13,672 nt of DNA, taken from Sedimenticola sp. (GTDB lineage Bacteria; Pseudomonadota; Gammaproteobacteria; Chromatiales; Chromatiaceae). The position numbers and the translations under genes are program-made. This document shows, in pieces, positions 106 to 11,133 of this stretch. The stretch's first letter is position 1; the number at the start of each line of letters is the position of its first letter. The DNA lies in assembly GCA_027038775.1 (NCBI GenBank), contig JALWGP010000139.1, positions 1 through 13,672 on the forward strand, given 5' to 3'. The notes below the pieces were generated by a model. That model was given only the letters and a program-made list of their open reading frames with translations. It was not told where the DNA came from and did not search any database.

Positions 106-1062
106 ATGACACCCCAGGCACTCGAACCCCTTCGCAACCACATCCGTTCCCGCGTCATCGGCCAGCAGAACCTCATCGACGGCATGCTCATCTGCCTGCT
201 GGCGGATGGTCACCTGCTGGTTGAAGGCATGCCGGGACTGGCCAAGACCACCGCCGTGAACGCCCTCTCCGAGGGCATCGAGGGCGACTTCCACCGGGTC
301 CAGTTCACCCCGGACCTGCTTCCCTCGGACCTGGTGGGCACCGACATTTACCGCCACGAGAAGGCCGAGTTCGAGTTCCGTCCCGGCCCCCTGTTCCACA
401 ACATCCTTCTCGCCGACGAGGTGAACCGGGCGCCGGCCAAGGTGCAGGCGGCGCTGCTGGAGGCGATGGGCGAGCGGCAGATCACCGTGGGCCAGAAGAC
501 CTACCGGCTGCCGGAGCTCTTCATGGTGCTGGCCACCCAGAACCCGGTGGAACAGGAGGGCACCTATCAGCTGCCCGAGGCCCAGCTCGACCGCTTTCTC
601 ATGCAGGTGGTGGTGGGCTACCCCACCCACGTCGAGGAGCTGGAGATCCTGGAGCTCGACCACAACCGCCAGCAGGCGGTGGAGACCCCGCCGCCCGACC
701 CCATCCCCCAGTCGGCCCTTTTCTCCATGCGCAAGTCGGCGGCCGAGGTCTACCTCGATCCCAAGCTCAACCGCTACATCGTGGACCTGGTGCAGGCCAC
801 CCGCAATCCCGGCCTCTACGACAAGGAGATGGCCCGCTGGATCCGCTTCGGGGCCTCACCCCGGGCCACCCTGGCGCTGGCCCGCTGCGCCCGCGCCCGC
901 GCCTGGCTGGACGACGAGGAGTTCGTCTCACCGGGCCACATCCAGAAGATCGCCCCGGACATCCTGCGCCACCGGGTGCTGCTCAGCTTCGAGGCGGAGG
1001 CGGAAGGGATCACTGCCGACGACGTGATCGAACGGCTGCTCTCGCTGGTGGCCATTCCCTAG
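106..1062 (+). CDS. MoxR-family AAA+ ATPase
   Basis: This 318-residue protein is a MoxR-type AAA+ ATPase, a family thought to act as chaperones that mature or activate partner VWA-domain proteins using ATP. Visible motifs are Walker A GMPGLAKT (41-48, K47), Walker B LLADEVNRAPAK (101-112, D104/E105), sensor 1 ATQNP (N146), an LDRF arginine finger (R163) and sensor 2 GASPRA (R253), followed by the C-terminal lid. Length and motif order are normal for the family and it has no signal peptide, so it is cytoplasmic. The ATG at 106 puts the usual start of the family (LRNHIRSRVIGQ) near the N-terminus; the Shine-Dalgarno-like GGAAG at 89-93 is about 12 bases away, which is rather far. It is the first gene of a MoxR-DUF58-DUF4381-VWA-VWA-TPR cluster. 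Family identity is clear; the physiological target is not known. Confidence 0.95.
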   Translation: MTPQALEPLRNHIRSRVIGQQNLIDGMLICLLADGHLLVEGMPGLAKTTAVNALSEGIEGDFHRVQFTPDLLPSDLVGTDIYRHEKAEFEFRPGPLFHNILLADEVNRAPAKVQAALLEAMGERQITVGQKTYRLPELFMVLATQNPVEQEGTYQLPEAQLDRFLMQVVVGYPTHVEELEILELDHNRQQAVETPPPDPIPQSALFSMRKSAAEVYLDPKLNRYIVDLVQATRNPGLYDKEMARWIRFGASPRATLALARCARARAWLDDEEFVSPGHIQKIAPDILRHRVLLSFEAEAEGITADDVIERLLSLVAIP

Positions 1063-1308
1063 CAAGGTGATGAAGTTTCCAGCAGACTGGACCTGGGAAA
1101 GTTCCAGCATGGTGCCAAGGACGGGAGCCATCCTTCCCGGCAGGAACGCCGTGAATCCATCCATGGAGGCTTCGCGGCGGCATCCCTGCCGCCGAGATCC
1201 CGCCGGGAAGGAAGGCTCCCCTCCTCGAGGGTCGCAGCAGAAATCCCGTTGGACTGAATCCCGACCGACATTTCTCTCTCTCCCCTCGTCCGCTCTCTGC
1301 CTTCGCCC
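1063..1308. other. Intergenic gap inside the Bat operon
   Basis: These 246 bases are the only sizeable gap in the moxR-to-TPR operon. The left part has a small hairpin (TCCAG-CAGA-CTGGA, 1078-1091) and an imperfect direct repeat (AAGTTTCCAGCA at 1073-1084, AAGTTCCAGCA at 1099-1109). The middle is the palindromic element at 1118-1225. The right part (about 1269-1308) is pyrimidine-rich and runs straight into the DUF58 start with no Shine-Dalgarno sequence. I see no convincing sigma70 promoter, no T-run terminator and no believable coding sequence here. Confidence 0.6.
1118..1225. repeat. Palindromic intergenic element with two inner hairpins
   Basis: The outer arms GGGAGCCATCCTTCCCGGC (1123-1141) and GCCGGGAAGGAAGGCTCCC (1202-1220) are reverse complements at 18 of 19 positions, and pairing extends four more bases outward (1118-1121 with 1222-1225) after one mismatch. 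Inside are two smaller hairpins: TCCAT-CC-ATGGA (1156-1167), and a perfect 7-bp stem at 1175-1181/1188-1194 with the loop ATCCCT. Both inner hairpins carry ATCC at or beside the loop. The whole would fold as a three-way, cruciform-like structure in DNA or RNA. The layout recalls dispersed palindromic repeats in intergenic regions of other gammaproteobacteria; this is from memory and not checked. It splits moxR from the DUF58 gene in an otherwise overlapping operon, so it may be an insertion that affects mRNA stability or downstream expression. Confidence 0.7.
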
Positions 1309-2235
1309 ATGAGCCTGCAGCCCGTACTCGACGACCTGCTGGAACTGCGTCACCAGGCCCACGCCCTGGGCATGGCCTCGCACCACCTGGTCAACTCCTC
1401 TTTCGCCGGCCTCTACGCCTCGGTCTTCCGCGGCCAGGGGCTCAACTTCGAGGAGGTGCGCGAGTACCACGAGGGCGACGACATCCGTAACATGGACTGG
1501 AAAGTCACCGCCCGCACCGGCGACCCCCACCTCAAGGTGTTCCGCGAGGAACGCGAGCGCAGCGTCATGCTCTGCGTGGACAAGGGGCCGCACATGGACT
1601 TCGGCACCCGCGGCACTTTCAAGTCGATCCAGGCGGCGAAGGCGGCGGCGCTGCTGGGCTGGGCCGCCAACCACCTCCACGATCGCGTGGGCGGCGTGCT
1701 CTTCGGCGACCCGCGCTGTGAGGACCGCTACTTCCGCGCCACCAAGGACCGGCGCGCGCTCTGGCGCCTGCTCAACGCGCTCACCACCGAGCCGGAGCAG
1801 TGCGACACCGCGCACGGCTCCGGCACCCTGCCCGAGATCCTGCGCAAGGCGAGCCAGGGCATCGGCACCGGCGGCTTGGTCTTCGTCGTCGCCGACTTCA
1901 ACCTCGACCCCGCCGAACTGAAGCAGCCCCTCTCCCAGCTCTGCCAGCACCACTCGGCGGTGCTGGTGCCCATCGACGATCCTGCGGAGCGGGAGCTGCC
2001 CGACATGGGCACCGTACTCTTTCACGGCCCCGACGGCGGACTGCTGGAAGTGGACACCTCCGACGAGCACGCCCGCCAGGCCTACCGCGAGGCCTGGGAG
2101 AACCGCCGCAACCGGCTGGTACAGCTGGCCAACAGCCTGGGCGTGGCGGTGATCCCGGTGTGGACCCACGAGGAGGTGCACGGCGCGCTGATGCGCGGCC
2201 TGGAACGCCGCCTGCGCATGAGGGCCTTCCTGTGA
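1309..2235 (+). CDS. DUF58 domain protein of the MoxR/Bat cluster
   Basis: This 308-residue protein belongs to the DUF58 family, which almost always sits next to moxR. The diagnostic block FRGQGLNFEEVREY followed by GDDIRNMDWKVTARTG and HLKVFREERER lies at residues 40-84. A VWA-like fold follows: a first strand MLCVDKGPHMDFG (87-99) and later VFVVADFN (191-198). The D-x-S-x-S metal site is not intact (D91-K-G93-P-H95), so it probably does not bind Mg like the two VWA proteins downstream. There is no signal peptide or membrane helix, so it is probably cytoplasmic. The ATG at 1309 is chosen because residues before Met22 (LDDLLELRHQAHAL) fit the family; no in-frame ATG, GTG or TTG and no ribosome site lies in the 40 pyrimidine-rich bases upstream. 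The stop overlaps the next gene's start (GTGA). The molecular role of the family is unproven. Confidence 0.93.
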   Translation: MSLQPVLDDLLELRHQAHALGMASHHLVNSSFAGLYASVFRGQGLNFEEVREYHEGDDIRNMDWKVTARTGDPHLKVFREERERSVMLCVDKGPHMDFGTRGTFKSIQAAKAAALLGWAANHLHDRVGGVLFGDPRCEDRYFRATKDRRALWRLLNALTTEPEQCDTAHGSGTLPEILRKASQGIGTGGLVFVVADFNLDPAELKQPLSQLCQHHSAVLVPIDDPAERELPDMGTVLFHGPDGGLLEVDTSDEHARQAYREAWENRRNRLVQLANSLGVAVIPVWTHEEVHGALMRGLERRLRMRAFL

Positions 2236-2723
2236 ACGAGGCCCTCGTGGCGCGCATGCGCGACATCCACGAACTGCCGCCCCCCTCCTGGTGGCCGCCG
2301 GCAGCCGGCTGGTGGCTGGTGGCCCTGGCGGTGGCCGCGGCAACCACGCTGCTCTGGCTGGGCATCCGCAGCCTGCGGCGCTACCCTCCGGGCAGCTGGC
2401 ACCGCGATGCGCGCAACCAGCTCCTCGCCTTGCGCCGCCTCACCGGCCAGCTCACCCCCGAGCAGAGCATCCGCGAGCTCTCCGAGCTGATGCGCCGCAT
2501 CGCCGTGGCCCGGGTGGGCCGGGAGGAGGCCGCCGGCCTCAGCGGCGAGGCGTGGCTCGCCTGGCTGGAGGAGAAGGACCCCGAGCAGTTCCCCTGGCGC
2601 CGCGAGGGCGAGGCGCTGGTCACCTCCGCCTACGCCCCGCCCGGCAAGTGCCCGGTGAGCACGGAGCAGGTGAACCGTCTCATCGAGGCGGCCCTGGTCT
2701 GGGCCAGGAGGAACCCGAAATGA
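2232..2723 (+). CDS. DUF4381 single-pass membrane protein
   Basis: This 163-residue protein begins with VNEALVARMRDIHELPPPSWWPP, the typical start of DUF4381 proteins found between DUF58 and VWA genes in this operon type. A hydrophobic segment at about residues 25-45 is a probable membrane anchor; the rest, including the ELSELMRRIAVAR helix, is likely a small soluble helical domain. The start is a GTG at 2232 that overlaps the DUF58 stop by four bases (GTGA), with GAGGG at 2220-2224 seven bases upstream. Longer in-frame starts further left would run through the DUF58 gene and lose the family N-terminus. The stop overlaps the next ATG (ATGA), which implies translational coupling. Function is unknown; membership of a membrane VWA complex is inferred from context. 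Confidence 0.9.
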   Translation: MNEALVARMRDIHELPPPSWWPPAAGWWLVALAVAAATTLLWLGIRSLRRYPPGSWHRDARNQLLALRRLTGQLTPEQSIRELSELMRRIAVARVGREEAAGLSGEAWLAWLEEKDPEQFPWRREGEALVTSAYAPPGKCPVSTEQVNRLIEAALVWARRNPK

Positions 2724-3757
2724 TCCGCTTCCAGTGGCCCTGGATGGTCCTGCTCCTGCTGCTGCCCACGCTCCAGTGGCTGCTGGCCCGGCGGCGCCTG
2801 GGCGCCCTCGACGACTACCGGCAGCGCCGCACCACCCTCCTCTACCCTTCCCTGGCACGGCTGGAAGCGGTCTTCCGGGGCCAGCGGCCCGGCCTCAGCC
2901 GGGGCTCCCTCCTCCAGTTCCTGCTCACGGCGCTCCTCTGGCTGGGGCTGACCCTGGCACTCATGCGTCCCCAGTGGCTCCAGCCCTACACCGACGAGAA
3001 GGTGGAGGGCTACGACCTGATGCTGGCGGTGGACGCCTCCCACTCCATGGAGGCACTGGACTTCACCGTGAACGGCCAGCAGGTGAGCCGCATGCAGGTG
3101 GTGAAGGGGGTCATGGGCCGCTTCATCGAGCAGCGCGAGGGAGACCGCGTGGGACTCGTCATCTTCGGCAATCAGGCCTTCGTGCTCTCCCCGCTGACCC
3201 TCGACCGGCGCATGGTGCGCCAGCTCCTCGACAACCTGGTGCCGCGCATCGCGGGCGACGGCACCGCGATGGGCGACGCCATCGGCCTGGGCATCAAGAA
3301 GCTGCGCGAACGGCCGCCCGGCTCGCGGGTGCTGATCCTGGTGGCGGACGGCGAGAACACCGCCGGCACCATTCCGCCCATCGAAGCGGCGAGGCTGGCG
3401 GCCGCCGAAGGCGTGCGCATCTACGCCATCGGCGTGGGCAGCCACCAGGAGGAGGTACCCATCATCGAGGAGGGCCGGCTGGTCTACCGCTCCGACCTGG
3501 GCTTCGACGAGGCCACCATGAAGCGGATCGCCGAGGCCACCGGCGGCGCCTACTTCCGCGCCAGTGACGCCAACGCCCTGGAAGAGATCTCGCGGCGCAT
3601 CAACGAGCTGGAGAAGAGCAAGGCGGAGTCGCGCACCATCTGGGTGCCCCGTCCCCTCTACCGCTGGCCCCTGGGCGTGGCACTGCTGAGCCTGCTCCTG
3701 CTGGGGCTCTTCCCGGGCGGGCGCTGGCGGTTGCCGTCGGGGAGGTTCCATGGCTGA
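2720..3757 (+). CDS. VWA-domain membrane protein, BatA-like
   Basis: This 345-residue protein has two N-terminal membrane segments (about 7-23 and 64-83), a von Willebrand A domain (about 98-295) and a C-terminal membrane helix (about 316-331), the standard plan of BatA-type proteins. The metal-ion-dependent adhesion site is complete: DASHS (D105, S107, S109), T182 in GDGTAMGDAIG, and D210 in VADGENTAG. The VWA domain is expected on one face of the inner membrane, where it would bind a protein partner through Mg2+ and may be remodelled by the MoxR ATPase (family knowledge). The ATG at 2720 overlaps the upstream stop by four bases and has a strong AGGAGGA (2706-2712) eight bases before it. The name BatA rests on domain order; aerotolerance is the historic label of the cluster and no function is proven here. 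Confidence 0.92.
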   Translation: MIRFQWPWMVLLLLLPTLQWLLARRRLGALDDYRQRRTTLLYPSLARLEAVFRGQRPGLSRGSLLQFLLTALLWLGLTLALMRPQWLQPYTDEKVEGYDLMLAVDASHSMEALDFTVNGQQVSRMQVVKGVMGRFIEQREGDRVGLVIFGNQAFVLSPLTLDRRMVRQLLDNLVPRIAGDGTAMGDAIGLGIKKLRERPPGSRVLILVADGENTAGTIPPIEAARLAAAEGVRIYAIGVGSHQEEVPIIEEGRLVYRSDLGFDEATMKRIAEATGGAYFRASDANALEEISRRINELEKSKAESRTIWVPRPLYRWPLGVALLSLLLLGLFPGGRWRLPSGRFHG

Positions 3758-4766
3758 GAGCGGTTTCCACTTCGCCCAGCCCTTGTGGTTCTGGCTGCTG
3801 CTGGTGATCCCCGCGGCAGTCGCCTGGCTCGTCTTCAGCCGTCCCGCGCGGCAGCGCGGCCGCGAGTACCTCTACGCCGACGCCGAGCTGATGCCCCACC
3901 TCACCGGCGAGACCGCCGCCGCCCGCGGCCGTGACTGGCGGCTGGTGGCGGCCTGGTGCCTGGCCTGGGCGCTGGCGGTGACGGCCATGGCCGGGCCCCG
4001 CTGGGACTACGAGCGGATCGCCGCCTTCCAGCCCGCCGCCGAGCTGGTGATCCTGCTGGACATCTCCGCTTCCATGAAGATCCAGGACGTGCGGCCGTCG
4101 CGCCTGGCGCGGGCCAGGCAGGAGATCCAGGATCTGCTGCGGCTCGATCCCGGCATCCGCATGGGGCTGGTGGCCTTCGCCACCGTGGCCCACGTGGTGG
4201 CGCCGCTCACCGAGGACCTGGAGACCCTGCACCGCGTTCTGCCCGGCCTCTCCGCCGACCTGGTGCGCCTGCCCGGCAGCCGCCTGGGCAACGCCCTGGA
4301 GAAGGCCGCCCTGCTCTTCACGCAGGAAGAGAAAAAGCGGCGCATCAGCCGCCATCTGCTGCTGATCACCGACGGCGACTTCAACGAGGCGGGGCTGGAC
4401 GAGAAGATTCGCCGGCTGCGTGAACAGGGCATCCACCTGCACGTGCTGGGGGTGGGCACCGAGGGAGGCGGTCCCGTTCCCCACGTCACCGGCCCGGATG
4501 GGCGGGCGGTGATCTCCCGCCTGAACCTGCAGGAGCTGCGCCGGCTGGTGGAGCTGGGCGGCGGCAGGTTCGAAGTGGCGGACTACCACGACCGCGACGT
4601 GCAGGCCATCCTGGAGGAGGTGCTGAAGGATGCCGACAGCATCCGCGTCGAGGGACAGCCCACGCGCGTCTGGAACGAGCGCTTCTACCTGCCGCTGATC
4701 CCCGTGGTGCTGCTGGTGCTCTGGCTCTTCGGCCCCGCCTCCCGCTACGCGAGGGGTGCGTCATGA
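3750..4766 (+). CDS. VWA-domain membrane protein, BatB-like
   Basis: This is the second VWA protein (338 residues), a diverged partner of its upstream neighbour. Membrane segments lie at about 12-30, 64-81 and 313-328, with the VWA domain at about 97-295 between the last two. The metal site has D104-x-S106-x-S108 in LLDISASM, Ser177 (GSRLGNALEKA) where the first VWA protein has Thr, and D208 in ITDGDFNEAG, so it looks competent. The start ATG at 3750 overlaps the upstream gene by eight bases and is preceded by GGGGAGG (3739-3745). The stop overlaps the TPR gene by four bases. In some relatives the second VWA protein and the TPR protein are one fused polypeptide; here they are separate (family knowledge from memory). 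It is probably part of a membrane complex with the other Bat proteins. Confidence 0.92.
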   Translation: MAESGFHFAQPLWFWLLLVIPAAVAWLVFSRPARQRGREYLYADAELMPHLTGETAAARGRDWRLVAAWCLAWALAVTAMAGPRWDYERIAAFQPAAELVILLDISASMKIQDVRPSRLARARQEIQDLLRLDPGIRMGLVAFATVAHVVAPLTEDLETLHRVLPGLSADLVRLPGSRLGNALEKAALLFTQEEKKRRISRHLLLITDGDFNEAGLDEKIRRLREQGIHLHVLGVGTEGGGPVPHVTGPDGRAVISRLNLQELRRLVELGGGRFEVADYHDRDVQAILEEVLKDADSIRVEGQPTRVWNERFYLPLIPVVLLVLWLFGPASRYARGAS

Positions 4767-6340
4767 CACGAACCCTGCTCGCCGGCCTGCTGTTCACCCT
4801 GCCCCTGGCCGCCCGCGCGGACCTCTTCCTCAACGCCGAACAGAAGGGGTGGCAGCACTACACCCAGGGCGACTACCAGGCGGCCGCGGAGACCTTCCGC
4901 GACCCCTTCCGCCAGGGCATGGCCTGGTACCGGGCCGGCCAGTACGCCCGGGCTGCCGAGGCCTTCGCCGAGGTGAAGAAGGAGGAGCGGCTGGCGGACG
5001 CCCTCTACAACCTGGGCAACAGCCAGTTCCGCATGGGAGACCTCAAGGCCGCCGCCGAAAGCTACCGCCAGGCCCTGGCGCGTCAGCCCGGTCACGAGGA
5101 CGCGCGCTACAACCTTTCCCTGGTGAACGCACTCCTCGTCCGCCTGGAGGAAAAGCGGAAAGAAGAGGAGGAAAAGGAGCAGCGGGAGGAGCAGAAGCAA
5201 CAGGAGAAGAGCCAGGAGCAACACCAGGAACAGCAGGCCCAGGAACCGGAGCAGCAGGAGAAACAGTCCGGGCAACCGCAGGAAAAGGAGCAGCAGCAAT
5301 CCGGAGAACAGCAGGAGCAGCAACAGCAGTCCGGGCAGCAGCAACAGGAGTCGGAAGAGCAACAGCAATCGGGGCAGCAGGACTCGGAACAGCAGCAGTC
5401 GGGAGAGCAGCAGCAGAAGCAGGAGCAGTCGGGCGGCCAGCAGTCCGAGCAGCAACAGGAGGGAGAGCAGCAATCCGAGCAGTCCGCCGGTGGCCAGCAG
5501 AACGAGGAACAGCAGGCAGGCGAATCCTCCGGGGAAGCGTCCGGCAGCAGCGGGGAGGAGAGCAGCGAGCAGACCACCGGTGGCGAATCCTCGGACCGGG
5601 AGCAACCGGGCGGCGAAGGGAGCGAAGAGGAGCAGCCGCAAGGGGCCGAGGGCAACGAAGCGCAGCAGCCCCCTTCGCAGGGCGGCGAGGAAGAGCAGAA
5701 GGACGAGGCGGCCGGCGCTCGTGAGGAGCAGAAAAAGGAGGAAGGCGGCGGCGGAGAGGAGCGGCAGGAGTCCGATGCCGGCGGCTCGCAGGAGCCGCAG
5801 CAGGAGCAATTCCGGTCCGGCGAGGAGTCCCCGCGGGAGGCAGAGGAAGAAGAGAGCGGGGAACGTGAAGGCGACCGCAAGGGCGAAGCCTCCTCGGCGG
5901 AGGCGGAGCAGGAGCAGGGCCGCAAGGGCGAGGAGACTCCCCCGCCCGAGGGCAGGCCGGAAGAGGCCGGCAGCAGTGAAACCGACCTGGAACGCCCACG
6001 CCCGCCAGAAGAACGCCCGCCCCTGGAGCGCCGTCACGGCGCCGCGGGCGAAACCGAGACCTTCGACGCGGAGGAGGCCAGCATGGACCAGGGCGCGGTG
6101 GAGAAGTTCGACCAGCTGGGCGCCCAGGACTCGGAGGAGAGCGAACGGGAAGGCCAGACCGAGAGCCTCTCCGACGTGCAGACCGAGCGCACCGGCCGCG
6201 GCGCCATGGGGCTCATGGAGCAGTGGCTGGAACAGGCCGAGGGCAACCCCGCCTACCTGCTGCGCAACCAGTTCCTGCTGGAGGAGCAGCGCGCGGTGAG
6301 CACCCGCTCGGCGCCGCTGCGGGAGCCGCGCCCCTGGTAG
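4763..6340 (+). CDS. Secreted TPR protein with long Gln/Glu-rich tail, BatC-like
   Basis: This 525-residue protein has a signal peptide (MTRTLLAGLLFTLPLAARA, likely cut before D20), so it is periplasmic. Residues about 26-125 hold TPR-like helices (YTQGDYQAAAETF, GMAWYRAGQYARAAEAF, ALYNLGNSQFRMGDLKAAAESYRQAL). Residues about 129-410 are low complexity, at first Gln/Glu-rich with a recurring QQQSGEQ/QQQSGQQ unit, then Glu/Gly/Ser-rich. The last 45 residues become ordered again: MEQWLEQAEGNPAYLLRNQF resembles the conserved end of Bat-operon TPR proteins. No second membrane helix is seen. The ATG at 4763 overlaps the VWA stop (ATGA) with GAGGGG just upstream. It ends the operon. It probably scaffolds the periplasmic side of the VWA complex; the disordered tail is unusually long and its role is unknown. 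Confidence 0.88.
   Translation: MTRTLLAGLLFTLPLAARADLFLNAEQKGWQHYTQGDYQAAAETFRDPFRQGMAWYRAGQYARAAEAFAEVKKEERLADALYNLGNSQFRMGDLKAAAESYRQALARQPGHEDARYNLSLVNALLVRLEEKRKEEEEKEQREEQKQQEKSQEQHQEQQAQEPEQQEKQSGQPQEKEQQQSGEQQEQQQQSGQQQQESEEQQQSGQQDSEQQQSGEQQQKQEQSGGQQSEQQQEGEQQSEQSAGGQQNEEQQAGESSGEASGSSGEESSEQTTGGESSDREQPGGEGSEEEQPQGAEGNEAQQPPSQGGEEEQKDEAAGAREEQKKEEGGGGEERQESDAGGSQEPQQEQFRSGEESPREAEEEESGEREGDRKGEASSAEAEQEQGRKGEETPPPEGRPEEAGSSETDLERPRPPEERPPLERRHGAAGETETFDAEEASMDQGAVEKFDQLGAQDSEESEREGQTESLSDVQTERTGRGAMGLMEQWLEQAEGNPAYLLRNQFLLEEQRAVSTRSAPLREPRPW
5147..5992 (+). repeat. Low-complexity purine-rich coding repeat
   Basis: Within the TPR gene, codons for about 280 residues are mostly CAG, CAA, GAG, GAA, GGC and TCC/TCG, giving a degenerate array of units such as CAGCAGTCGGGAGAGCAG. 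The + strand is strongly purine-rich here, and the complement reads as a long Leu-rich pseudo-ORF. Units vary in length and sequence, so this is not a clean tandem repeat. It could change length by slippage or recombination while often keeping the frame. Confidence 0.8.
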
Positions 6341-6430: not shown

Positions 6431-7386
6431 ATGTCCGTCAAGCACCCCATCATCGCCTTCACCGGCTCCTCCGGCGCCGGCACCACCACGTTCCGGGAGG
6501 TGTTCGACCGTCTCCTGAAGGAAGAGGGAATCACCCGTTTCCGCGTGGACGGCAACGCCTTCCGTCGCTACGACCGCAAGGCCATGAAGTACATGGTGGA
6601 GCGCTACCGCGAACAGGGACGCTGCCTGAGCCACTTCTCGCCCGAGGCCAACCACCTGGAACGGCTGGAGGGGCTGTTCCGGGAATACTCGCGCACAGGT
6701 GCCGGCCTCTGCCGGCGCTACCTGGAGAACGAAGAGCTGGCCGAGATGTACGGCCAGCCGGCAGGCTCCTTCACCCCCTGGGAAGAGATCCCCAAGGGAA
6801 CCGACGTGCTGGTCTACGACGGACTGCACGGCGGCTACTCGGAAAGGCCCTGGAGCCAGCGCAAGACCTCGCCGTCGCACAACCCCGAGGTGATCCGGCG
6901 CCGCCTGCAGGTGGCGTTGTGCGAGGTACCCGAGCTGGACATCGCCCGCTGGGTGGACCTGCTCATCGGCGTGGTGCCGGTGATCAACCTGGAGTGGATC
7001 CAGAAGATCTACCGCGACGCCCACCACAAGAACAAGCCGGCGGAGAACACCATCCAGACCATCCAGCGCCGCCTGCCCGACTACATCAACTACATCGTGC
7101 CCCAGTTCTCCCTCACCGACATCAACTTCCAGCGGGTGCCGCTGAGCGACACCTCCAACCCCTTCGTACTGCGCGAGATTCCCTCGCTGGACGAGAGCAT
7201 CGTGGTGATCCGCTTCCGCGACCCGAAGGGACACGACTTCCCCCACTTCCTGAAGCGCATCAAGGGCTCCTGGATGTCACGGCGAAACACCCTGGTGATT
7301 CCCGGCGGCCAGCTGGAGCACGCCATCCGCGTCATCTGCGCGCCCCTGGTGCACGAGCTGGTAAAGCGCTACCGGGAAGCCTCGGG

Positions 7387-7390
<4 letters not shown>
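6431..7390 (+). CDS. Divergent phosphoribulokinase homologue
   Basis: This 319-residue protein aligns along its whole length with bacterial class I phosphoribulokinase, which makes ribulose 1,5-bisphosphate from ribulose 5-phosphate and ATP. Conserved parts are the P-loop GSSGAGTTT (13-21), SHFSPEAN (67-74), [13 protein letters not shown] (180-192), R195-D196, [13 protein letters not shown] (224-237) and DTSNPF (240-245). Against Rhodobacter sphaeroides PRK, recalled from memory, several functional residues differ: N42 for catalytic Asp42, R45 for His45, E99 for His100, D130 for the Walker B Glu131, and K200 for Arg173. R49, K192 (Lys165), R195 (Arg168) and D196 (Asp169) are kept. About 28 extra residues (roughly 137-165) sit before the DLLIGVVP strand, making it longer than the usual 290. 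No Rubisco gene is present. It is probably a paralogue with altered or lost PRK activity. Its stop overlaps the parC stop. Confidence 0.85.
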
Positions 7391-9640: not shown

Positions 9641-10099
9641 CTATTTCTTCCTGAAGTCGCGCATCTCTTCGAGGATCGCCTGGATGTCATTGTGCCAGCG
9701 GGCGAACTGCACCCGCAGCACCCTGCTGTGGCCGTAGAGGCGGCTCAGCGCCACGGGATCGATGGAAGCGAGCACCGTCTGGTCCTCTTCGGCGATGACG
9801 GCGATCTTCAGCGGCAGGAAGGGTGCCATCTCCGGGTAGGCGTCGAGAATGCCGCGCACCTCTTCCAGCTTGCCGAAGAAGACCACCCGGTAGAAGTCGG
9901 TCTTGTAGTCGAACTCGGCCATGCCGCCGTCGCAGCGCTGCACGTGGGCCACCTCGTAGCCGTATTCGCGGATGGTCTCCTTGAGCACCTCCATGGCGTC
10001 GGCGGCCTTCATGTTCACGCGCACCATGAGCAGGGTCTCCTCCGCCCGAACCGGCAGCACGGCGGCGAACAGGAGAAGGGAAAACAGCAGTCTTTTCAC
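9641..10099 (-). CDS. Periplasmic DUF302 protein
   Basis: This 152-residue protein has a signal peptide ([19 protein letters not shown], likely cut before E20) and a single DUF302 domain over about residues 22-125. That is a small alpha/beta family of unproven function, often met near redox and sulfur genes. It resembles the C-terminal domain of the upstream cytochrome: both show an EF-type strand, a helix, a central hydrophobic turn ([11 protein letters not shown] here, GTVLPCRINVL there), then [14 protein letters not shown] or LLVSPNVVEVARL. The cysteine at the centre of that turn is absent here; the one remaining cysteine is in VQRCDGG. The start is GTG at 10099, overlapping the upstream stop by four bases (GTGA), with a very strong GGAGGAGG at 10107-10114. 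It lies between the cytochrome gene and parC, and probably works with the cytochrome. Confidence 0.88.
9647..9652 (-). promoter_or_regulatory. Ribosome binding site fixing the parC GTG start
   Basis: Read on the minus strand, AGGAAG lies seven bases before GTG at 9639, inside the final codons of the DUF302 gene. It supports the GTG start over the upstream ATG at 9690 and implies translation coupled to the DUF302 gene. Confidence 0.7.
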
Positions 10100-11133
10100 A
10101 GCGTCGCCTCCTCCATCACACCGAGGATGATCTCCTCCATGATGACAGCCACCTCCAGCAGTTCACGGTTGTTGAACAGCCTGGCCACTTCCACCACGTT
10201 GGGCGAGACCAGCAGCACCTTACCGTTTCGCTCCAGCACGTTGATTCGGCAGGGCAGCACAGTGCCCATGCGGGGATCGATGTTGAGCAGGTGGTAGAGC
10301 TCCTTGAAGTTGCAGAAGCGGATGCCCAGCTGCTTCTTGTTCACGCTGAACTCATCGGTCAACCCCTGCTCCAGGTAACGCGGCGGAAAGATGCGGAAGT
10401 TGGCGCCGGTGAGCGCCTGCCTGAGCGCCTGCACTGTATCCTCGAAGCTGTAGGGTGACTCCATGATGTACGCCGGCTTGCCGGCCCACTCGCGCATGCC
10501 GCGGATGGGCGGCGGACTCTTCAGGGTGCGCACGTAGGCCACCACGTCGCCGATCTGCTCATCGGTGAGTTTCTTGCGGAAGGCGGGCATGCCGCCCACC
10601 TTGCGCCCGCGCCGGATGATATCGGCGATCATGGCGTCGGAGGCGGAGCGTTGGAAGCCGGGGTTGTTGAGCGCCGCCGGCATCACCATGAACTCCCGCT
10701 CGCGCGAGAGGGTGACACCGGTGCCGGTACCTTCGCCACTGCCATCGGCACCGTGGCAGCGCTGGCAGTGTTTCTTGTACAACGGCTTGCCCTGCGCGGG
10801 ATCCCCCTTCACCGCCAGCTTGGGGTACACCGGTGCGGGCTGGTTGCTCCAGCTGCGGATGTACTGGAGGATGGCCTTCACCTGGGCGTCACTCAGCGCC
10901 ACGAAGGCCGGCATGATGCGCCCGGGCCGGCCGTTGCGGATGGTCTTGGCGATGTAGTCGTCGCTGAGCTGGGAGAGGATCTCCCCGGTAAGCGGCAGAC
11001 CGATGCCGCCCTTGCCCTCGCTCTGGTGACAGGCGCTGCAGTGCGCCTCGTAGAGCGCCTTGCCATCCGGCGCGGCCCACAGGGACGGGGCCAGAAGACA
11101 CAACAACAGTAACAGTATTAGGTGTCGTTTCAT
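10096..11133 (-). CDS. Dihaem cytochrome c fused to a DUF302 domain
   Basis: This 345-residue protein has a signal peptide (residues 1 to about 20, ...LLAPSLWA), two class I cytochrome c domains and a C-terminal DUF302 domain. Domain 1 (about 22-95) has haem site CSACH (C32, C35, H36) and a likely axial Met74 in GRIMPAF. Domain 2 (about 110-205) has CQRCH (C123, C126, H127) and Met182 in GGMPAF. Both domains are c5/c4-like electron carriers attached covalently to haem in the periplasm. DUF302 spans about 218-345 and contains Cys274 and Cys295. The ATG at 11133 shares one base with the parE stop (TGATG), and AGGAGTGA (11141-11148) is the likely ribosome site. The partner is probably the DUF302 protein encoded next. 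The reaction is unknown; electron transfer tied to sulfur or oxygen metabolism is only a guess. Confidence 0.92.
   Translation of the reverse strand: MKRHLILLLLLCLLAPSLWAAPDGKALYEAHCSACHQSEGKGGIGLPLTGEILSQLSDDYIAKTIRNGRPGRIMPAFVALSDAQVKAILQYIRSWSNQPAPVYPKLAVKGDPAQGKPLYKKHCQRCHGADGSGEGTGTGVTLSREREFMVMPAALNNPGFQRSASDAMIADIIRRGRKVGGMPAFRKKLTDEQIGDVVAYVRTLKSPPPIRGMREWAGKPAYIMESPYSFEDTVQALRQALTGANFRIFPPRYLEQGLTDEFSVNKKQLGIRFCNFKELYHLLNIDPRMGTVLPCRINVLERNGKVLLVSPNVVEVARLFNNRELLEVAVIMEEIILGVMEEATL
10107..10114 (-). promoter_or_regulatory. Strong ribosome binding site of the DUF302 gene
   Basis: GGAGGAGG read on the minus strand sits seven bases before the GTG at 10099, within the end of the cytochrome gene. 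It confirms the GTG start and suggests good translation of the small DUF302 protein relative to its neighbours. Confidence 0.75.

Follow-up and report, generated by a model that had tools for sequence, protein, structure and literature searches.

An insert-bearing paralogue of phosphoribulokinase in Sedimenticola sp.: probably an overlooked sister family with another job, mostly in CO2-fixing bacteria

Mutants of phosphoribulokinase (PRK) in which the catalytic base D42 is replaced lose most of their activity. His45 and Lys165 are described as binding ribulose 5-phosphate (Ru5P), Arg168 as binding ATP; a phosphate is bound by one residue each of Arg, Tyr and His (PMC5241800). The catalytic dyad of plant PRK consists of an Asp and a His (PMC9978339), the latter of which we infer to correspond to H100. 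The bacterial-type enzyme of Rhodobacter sphaeroides is an octamer (PMC9978339), PRKs of this type are regulated by NADH and AMP (PMC4806589), and PRK and RuBisCO are used jointly as Calvin-cycle marker genes in genome surveys (PMC7895386, PMC12999727). Here we explore a PRK homologue encoded in a 13,672-nucleotide stretch of Sedimenticola sp. DNA (contig JALWGP010000139.1, hereafter the window), which a preliminary description had read as having a rewritten active site. A literature search covering search listings and passages of papers, few of them subscription papers, yielded no description of a PRK with the insert reported below or with N42.

Active site of the window protein

The open reading frame (ORF) is complete, beginning with ATG, ending at a stop and containing none inside. 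Its 319 amino acid product belongs to the PRK/uridine kinase superfamily PF00485 (158.2 bits, cut-off 22) and exceeds the cut-off of NF011997, the NCBIfam equivalog model of bacterial-type PRK (398.9 bits, cut-off 362). Among solved structures R. sphaeroides PRK, 1a7j, is the closest to it (phmmer, E 3.5e-83); fold searches also return uridine-cytidine and pantothenate kinases, far more weakly, and no NCBIfam uridine kinase model matched at E 0.001. Residues were mapped by the phmmer alignment to 1a7j and the numbering of that chain, which yields the following features, type A being the family defined below.

6431-7390, plus strand: type A PRK-like paralogue, 319 amino acids plus stop (ORF scan, PF00485, NF011997, 1a7j match)
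6464-6490, plus strand: P-loop GSSGAGTTT, residues 12-20, kept (sequence, alignment to 1a7j)
6554-6556, plus strand: N42, codon AAC, at the PRK catalytic base D42 (alignment to 1a7j)
6563-6565, plus strand: R45, codon CGT, at the Ru5P-binding H45 (alignment to 1a7j)
6725-6727, plus strand: E99 at the H100 site (residue mapping on 1a7j)
6818-6820, plus strand: D130 at the E131 site (alignment to 1a7j)
6833-6937, plus strand: insert region, residues 135-169, with W141, R144, S149 H150 N151 P152 and R158 (columns nearly empty in canonical rows)
7004-7018, plus strand: K192, R195 and D196, the canonical K165, R168 and D169, kept (alignment to 1a7j)
7028-7030, plus strand: K200 at the R173 site (residue mapping on 1a7j)
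7337-7339, plus strand: C303, type A-specific, in 150 of 151 rows (family alignment)

The mapping agrees with the preliminary description on the intact P-loop, on the retention of Lys165, Arg168 and Asp169, and on the replacements D42 to N42, H45 to R45, H100 to E99, E131 to D130 and R173 to K200, to which R31 to E31 is added; R49, Y98, H134, R186, R187, R221 and R234 are also kept. Compared with 1a7j, the window protein further has C303 and 28 additional residues between LHG and the next segment common to both. A shifted catalytic base is refuted, D40 pairing with canonical E40, and a sequencing error at codon 42 is excluded, since N42 recurs in the 23 best homologues (P0002-P0024) and all 15 genomes of the genus carry the identical ten-site residue string. 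Of the residues tested for bacterial-type PRK, the P-loop, K165, R168 and D169 are present, and D42, H45, H100 and R173 are absent. PrkB of Escherichia coli, the putative phosphoribulokinase of a heterotroph, is a homologue of 49% identity without the insert that, unlike the window protein, keeps D42, H45, R49, H100, E131, K165, R168, D169 and R173.

The type A clade

The best 120 of 8000 scored homologues (309-334 amino acids) were aligned with the PRKs from fetched loci, giving 271 rows picked by similarity to the window protein or to PRK, not a random sample. We assign to type A, as we do the window protein, sequences with an insert after LHG bearing W141, R144 and R158, without H45 and with C303. 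Extra residues after LHG, 23-32 in number, are found in 151 rows (28 in 114 of them); W141 and R144 occur in all 151, and R158 and C303 in 150 each. H45 occurs in none, being replaced by R (125), L (22), F (3) or Q (1). Position 42 holds N in 114, D in 28, E in 5 and S in 4, and position 173 holds K in 114 and R in 6. H100 was tallied in 6 rows, a count that depends on the alignment as L148 and L149 show a gap there in another one; D42 and H100 stand together in 6. D169 is present in all 151, Y98 in 148, K165 in 147 and R49 in 112, while R168 is missing from 34. In thinned rows, the constraint gained in type A falls mostly on insert positions, with C303 as the clear exception, and that lost includes positions 40, 42, 45, 49, 100, 131, 168 and 173. 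The main innovation of type A is the W..R..SHNP..R insert with C303, which the preliminary description missed.

The idea, raised there as a check, that N42, R45 and D130 mark a clade is not supported in that form. The triple is real in the window protein and occurs in 30 of the 151 rows, which are all the type A rows with D at 131 (E in 116; K, R, N or S in 5), so it does not mark type A. D130 is a conservative change confined to close relatives, the lowest identity to the window protein among these 30 rows being 68% and the best E131 row reaching 67%; N42 alone fails as a mark too, given the 28 rows with D42.

All nine residues listed for PrkB are present in 89 of 89 insert-free rows of the first alignment, a set that predates the recognition of type B (see below) and left out the type B-like insert-free row L025. 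The window protein was not filed as a PRK because it fails residue tests which all these rows pass. The larger alignment, which regained seven of nine rows with an atypical P-loop (the genes of L115 and L117 are already represented by L144 and L146), has 120 rows without the insert: 105 have D42, H45, H100 and E131, all with the full nine, and the remaining 15 are type B-like (ten relatives of L178, and L174, L176, L178, L180 and L025).

Trees were built after removing the insert and diagnostic columns, by a quick method that left many inner branches unresolved; type A forms one side of a branch with Shimodaira-Hasegawa-like approximate likelihood ratio (SH-aLRT) support of 100 (34 rows) and 98 (44 rows). 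On the 44-row tree at least seven changes are needed between D42 and its absence and at least three for H100. The insert and the missing H45 are thus common to the whole clade and the base at 42 was repeatedly lost or regained, for which reason type A function seems independent of it; since the position switches between D, N, E and S, a base there seems non-essential.

For the five closest genomes (10 pairs) the ratio of non-synonymous to synonymous substitution rates (dN/dS) of type A is 0.060-0.217, rising to 0.31 at most across all 30 pairs; canonical PRK in the same five genomes gives 0.044-0.200. The residue tallies and low dN/dS bear out the earlier suggestion of a PRK-fold paralogue retained under selection with its canonical catalytic set rewritten. 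Taken together, the alignments, trees and rates show type A to be a distinct, selected clade in which the PRK substrate site is changed and the ATP and Mg residues are kept.

Distribution and gene surroundings

Type A is present in 15 of 15 sampled genomes of the genus, with no internal stop and with ten residues identical to the window. A draw of 195 genomes from the order contained it in 15, namely 13 of the genus, G016 and G508, and a draw of 369 genomes from the class in 18, from 11 families, the insert and the loss of H45 being checked in all 18. A match in G107, which would make 19, was rejected because the protein is a canonical PRK carrying 7 additional residues. Seven of the 18 genomes have D at position 42, six have N, three have E and two have S, and H45 occurs in none. 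Named holders among the best 120 of 8000 homologues are Thiolapillus, Thioalbus, Endothiovibrio and Sulfuricaulis, others being titled Gammaproteobacteria, Thiotrichales or Pseudomonadota. Three holders titled Betaproteobacteria (Hydrogenophilales L076, Burkholderiales L053 and a Betaproteobacteria metagenome-assembled genome (MAG), L052) keep D42 and H100, yet have R45, and Leu replaces T18 of their P-loop.

RuBisCO was found in 17 of the 18 type A genomes versus 187 of all 369, and canonical PRK in 16 of the 18; the two exceptions are 72% and 79% complete. G317, a single contig of 2.5 Mb rated 72% complete, contains type A, and neither RuBisCO nor canonical PRK was detected in it; canonical PRK was also not detected in the type A genome G350. 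In fragmented genomes of the genus (350-770 contigs), canonical PRK was not detected in G001, G003 and G014, nor RuBisCO in G003, G014 and G005.

The host genome (2.37 Mb, 440 contigs, 89% complete) does contain a second, canonical prk, a possibility raised beforehand. This 290 amino acid protein on contig C349 has 51% identity to the window protein, carries EGDSFHRYDR and FYEGLHG, scores 491.9 bits with NF011997 and, unlike the window protein, has intact catalytic residues (all nine tallied) and no insert. RuBisCO large-subunit genes lie on contigs C76 and C77. With canonical PRK and RuBisCO in the genome, the window protein therefore need not be the cell's PRK.

In the window, the 3' end of the gene meets a convergent topoisomerase IV/gyrase A-type gene. 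Directly upstream, 106-6340 encodes a MoxR AAA ATPase and a tetratricopeptide repeat (TPR) protein containing a long segment rich in Q and E, a gene set which we take to be a Bat-type operon. At 9641-11133 on the minus strand two adjoining genes encode a DUF302 protein and a cytochrome c, the latter having DUF302 as its C-terminal domain besides two haem-domain stretches; they lie between the gyrase A-type gene and another gene, presumably that of topoisomerase IV subunit B.

The ORFs at 33 fetched loci (one of them, L154, canonical) and the window were clustered, and Pfam scans covered 24 of 72 listed flanking ORFs and six genes of the window; within this set no partner gene conserved between families was found. 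At L138, in another family, the MoxR gene of the window has a homologue at a distance of 1.3-2.2 kb from the type A gene, encoded on the other strand, and an ion-channel neighbour occurs at both L138 and L155; both were treated as chance. Because no neighbour is conserved across families, gene context points to no function for type A.

Possible functions and comparison with known paralogues

Type A is probably an overlooked sister family of PRK with another job, mostly in CO2-fixing bacteria. Its residues make loss of normal PRK activity likely in the window protein, as the preliminary description had suggested, and the new substrate offered there as an alternative is one of the two main readings considered here. 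The reading that we favour, tentatively and at close to an even chance, is that this protein is not the organism's Calvin-cycle PRK and instead phosphorylates a different phosphorylated acceptor. Type A would have split from PRK as a paralogue. With the P-loop, the LHG histidine, Lys165 and Asp169 kept, binding of ATP-Mg should persist, while the H45 contact is absent across the whole clade and D42, H100 and R173 from most rows. The clade gained Cys303 and, just after the Walker B/LHG segment, 23-32 residues with an invariant Trp and Arg. Since insert and R45 may build a new acceptor pocket, the result would be a phosphotransferase acting on some other phosphorylated acceptor in mainly CO2-fixing cells.

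Several observations weigh against this proposal. No conserved neighbour or ligand names a substrate, and confidence of the predicted structure is lower in the insert (block means 73-78, among the weaker parts of the model). The putative base itself is present in the 6 rows with D42 and H100 and in the 7 of 18 class genomes with D42. K, R, N or S at 131 (5/151) and the loss of R168 (34/151) would suggest a non-catalytic role in some members. The Fisher test for co-occurrence with RuBisCO (p 1e-4) ignores shared ancestry among 18 genomes in 11 families, and type A is not a core part of CO2 fixation, because it occurs in no more than 17 of the 187 class-draw genomes with RuBisCO.

It is possible, if somewhat doubtful, that type A is instead a regulatory pseudo-subunit that binds nucleotide, does not phosphorylate Ru5P and modulates canonical PRK, an octamer, through competition or mixed oligomers. 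The company of canonical PRK and of RuBisCO in the type A genomes, the octameric state of R. sphaeroides PRK (PMC9978339) and the regulation of such PRKs by NADH and AMP (PMC4806589) are in keeping with such a role, and type B, with R or K for E131 in 120 of 120, suggests that probably inactive PRK paralogues are kept in this group. However, the residues on the ATP/Mg side are almost as conserved as in canonical PRK which, like the invariant residues of the new insert, exceeds the needs of a scaffold; in the host genome the gene is not beside the PRK gene, and no canonical PRK was detected in G317, G350, G001, G003 and G014 (three rated below 85% complete, four fragmented).

That type A is a working PRK isozyme, with R45, the insert histidine and E99 replacing H45, the D42/H100 pair and R173, is improbable. 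The protein passes the NF011997 cut-off, R49, Y98, K165 and D169 are mostly kept in the clade, and some rows retain D42 with H100, but D42, H45, H100 and R173 are intact in all 89 insert-free rows of the first alignment, His45 is reported as substrate-binding (PMC5241800) and the Asp/His pair of plant PRK as catalytic (PMC9978339), and a canonical PRK is already encoded in the genome. That the gene is a functionless duplicate in decay is very improbable indeed, for although dN exceeds that of the canonical copy in the same five genomes (0.026-0.146 vs 0.021-0.062), this is contradicted by the low dN/dS, the absence of internal stops in 15 genus genomes, the invariant insert residues and the spread over 11 families.

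If the substrate is new, chemoautotrophs hold an unassigned step; if the role is regulatory, type A bacteria have a control of PRK. Annotation by NF011997 would label types A and B alike as PRK, because all nine extra proteins scanned (five type A, four type B) pass it, even a type B member with a degraded P-loop (367.9 vs 362 bits).

Type B, recognised through additional PRK copies in this family of bacteria, is represented by L178 (183-1121), P0122-P0241 and L212 (1501-2439), L178 being identical to a protein of a Solemya velum gill symbiont. Its holders are Solemya gill symbionts, a Sedimenticola MAG and a Candidatus Thiothrix, and in the G107 copy (L212) the P-loop is degraded too. Among the best 120 relatives of L178, E131 is R or K in all, D42 is replaced in 118, mostly by S or N, and H45 (118), R49 (120), H100 (119) and R173 (118) are kept; a type B profile run against the 369 class genomes failed to discriminate by score between type B and canonical PRK. 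A third small cluster (L174, 213-1067; L176, 137-1006; L025), with S42 and K or Q at 131, stands apart from type B in the tree.

Like type A, type B (e.g. P0122, Solemya velum gill symbiont) is a divergent PRK paralogue that passes NF011997 and whose named holders are Proteobacteria. Unlike type A, it has no insert and forms a separate clade, and it is the mirror image in its residues: H45, R49, H100 and R173 are kept and D42 and E131 are lost. It is possible, though we advance it with caution, that the two are complementary paralogues in proteobacterial autotrophs, A having kept the ATP half and exchanged the sugar-phosphate half while adding an insert, and B having retained the sugar-phosphate half without the base or the Walker B acid. 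Either A would then be a sugar-phosphate kinase tied to CO2 fixation, or both would be sensor subunits of mixed PRK assemblies, A for nucleotide and B for Ru5P, a control layer in the role that CP12 has in cyanobacteria.
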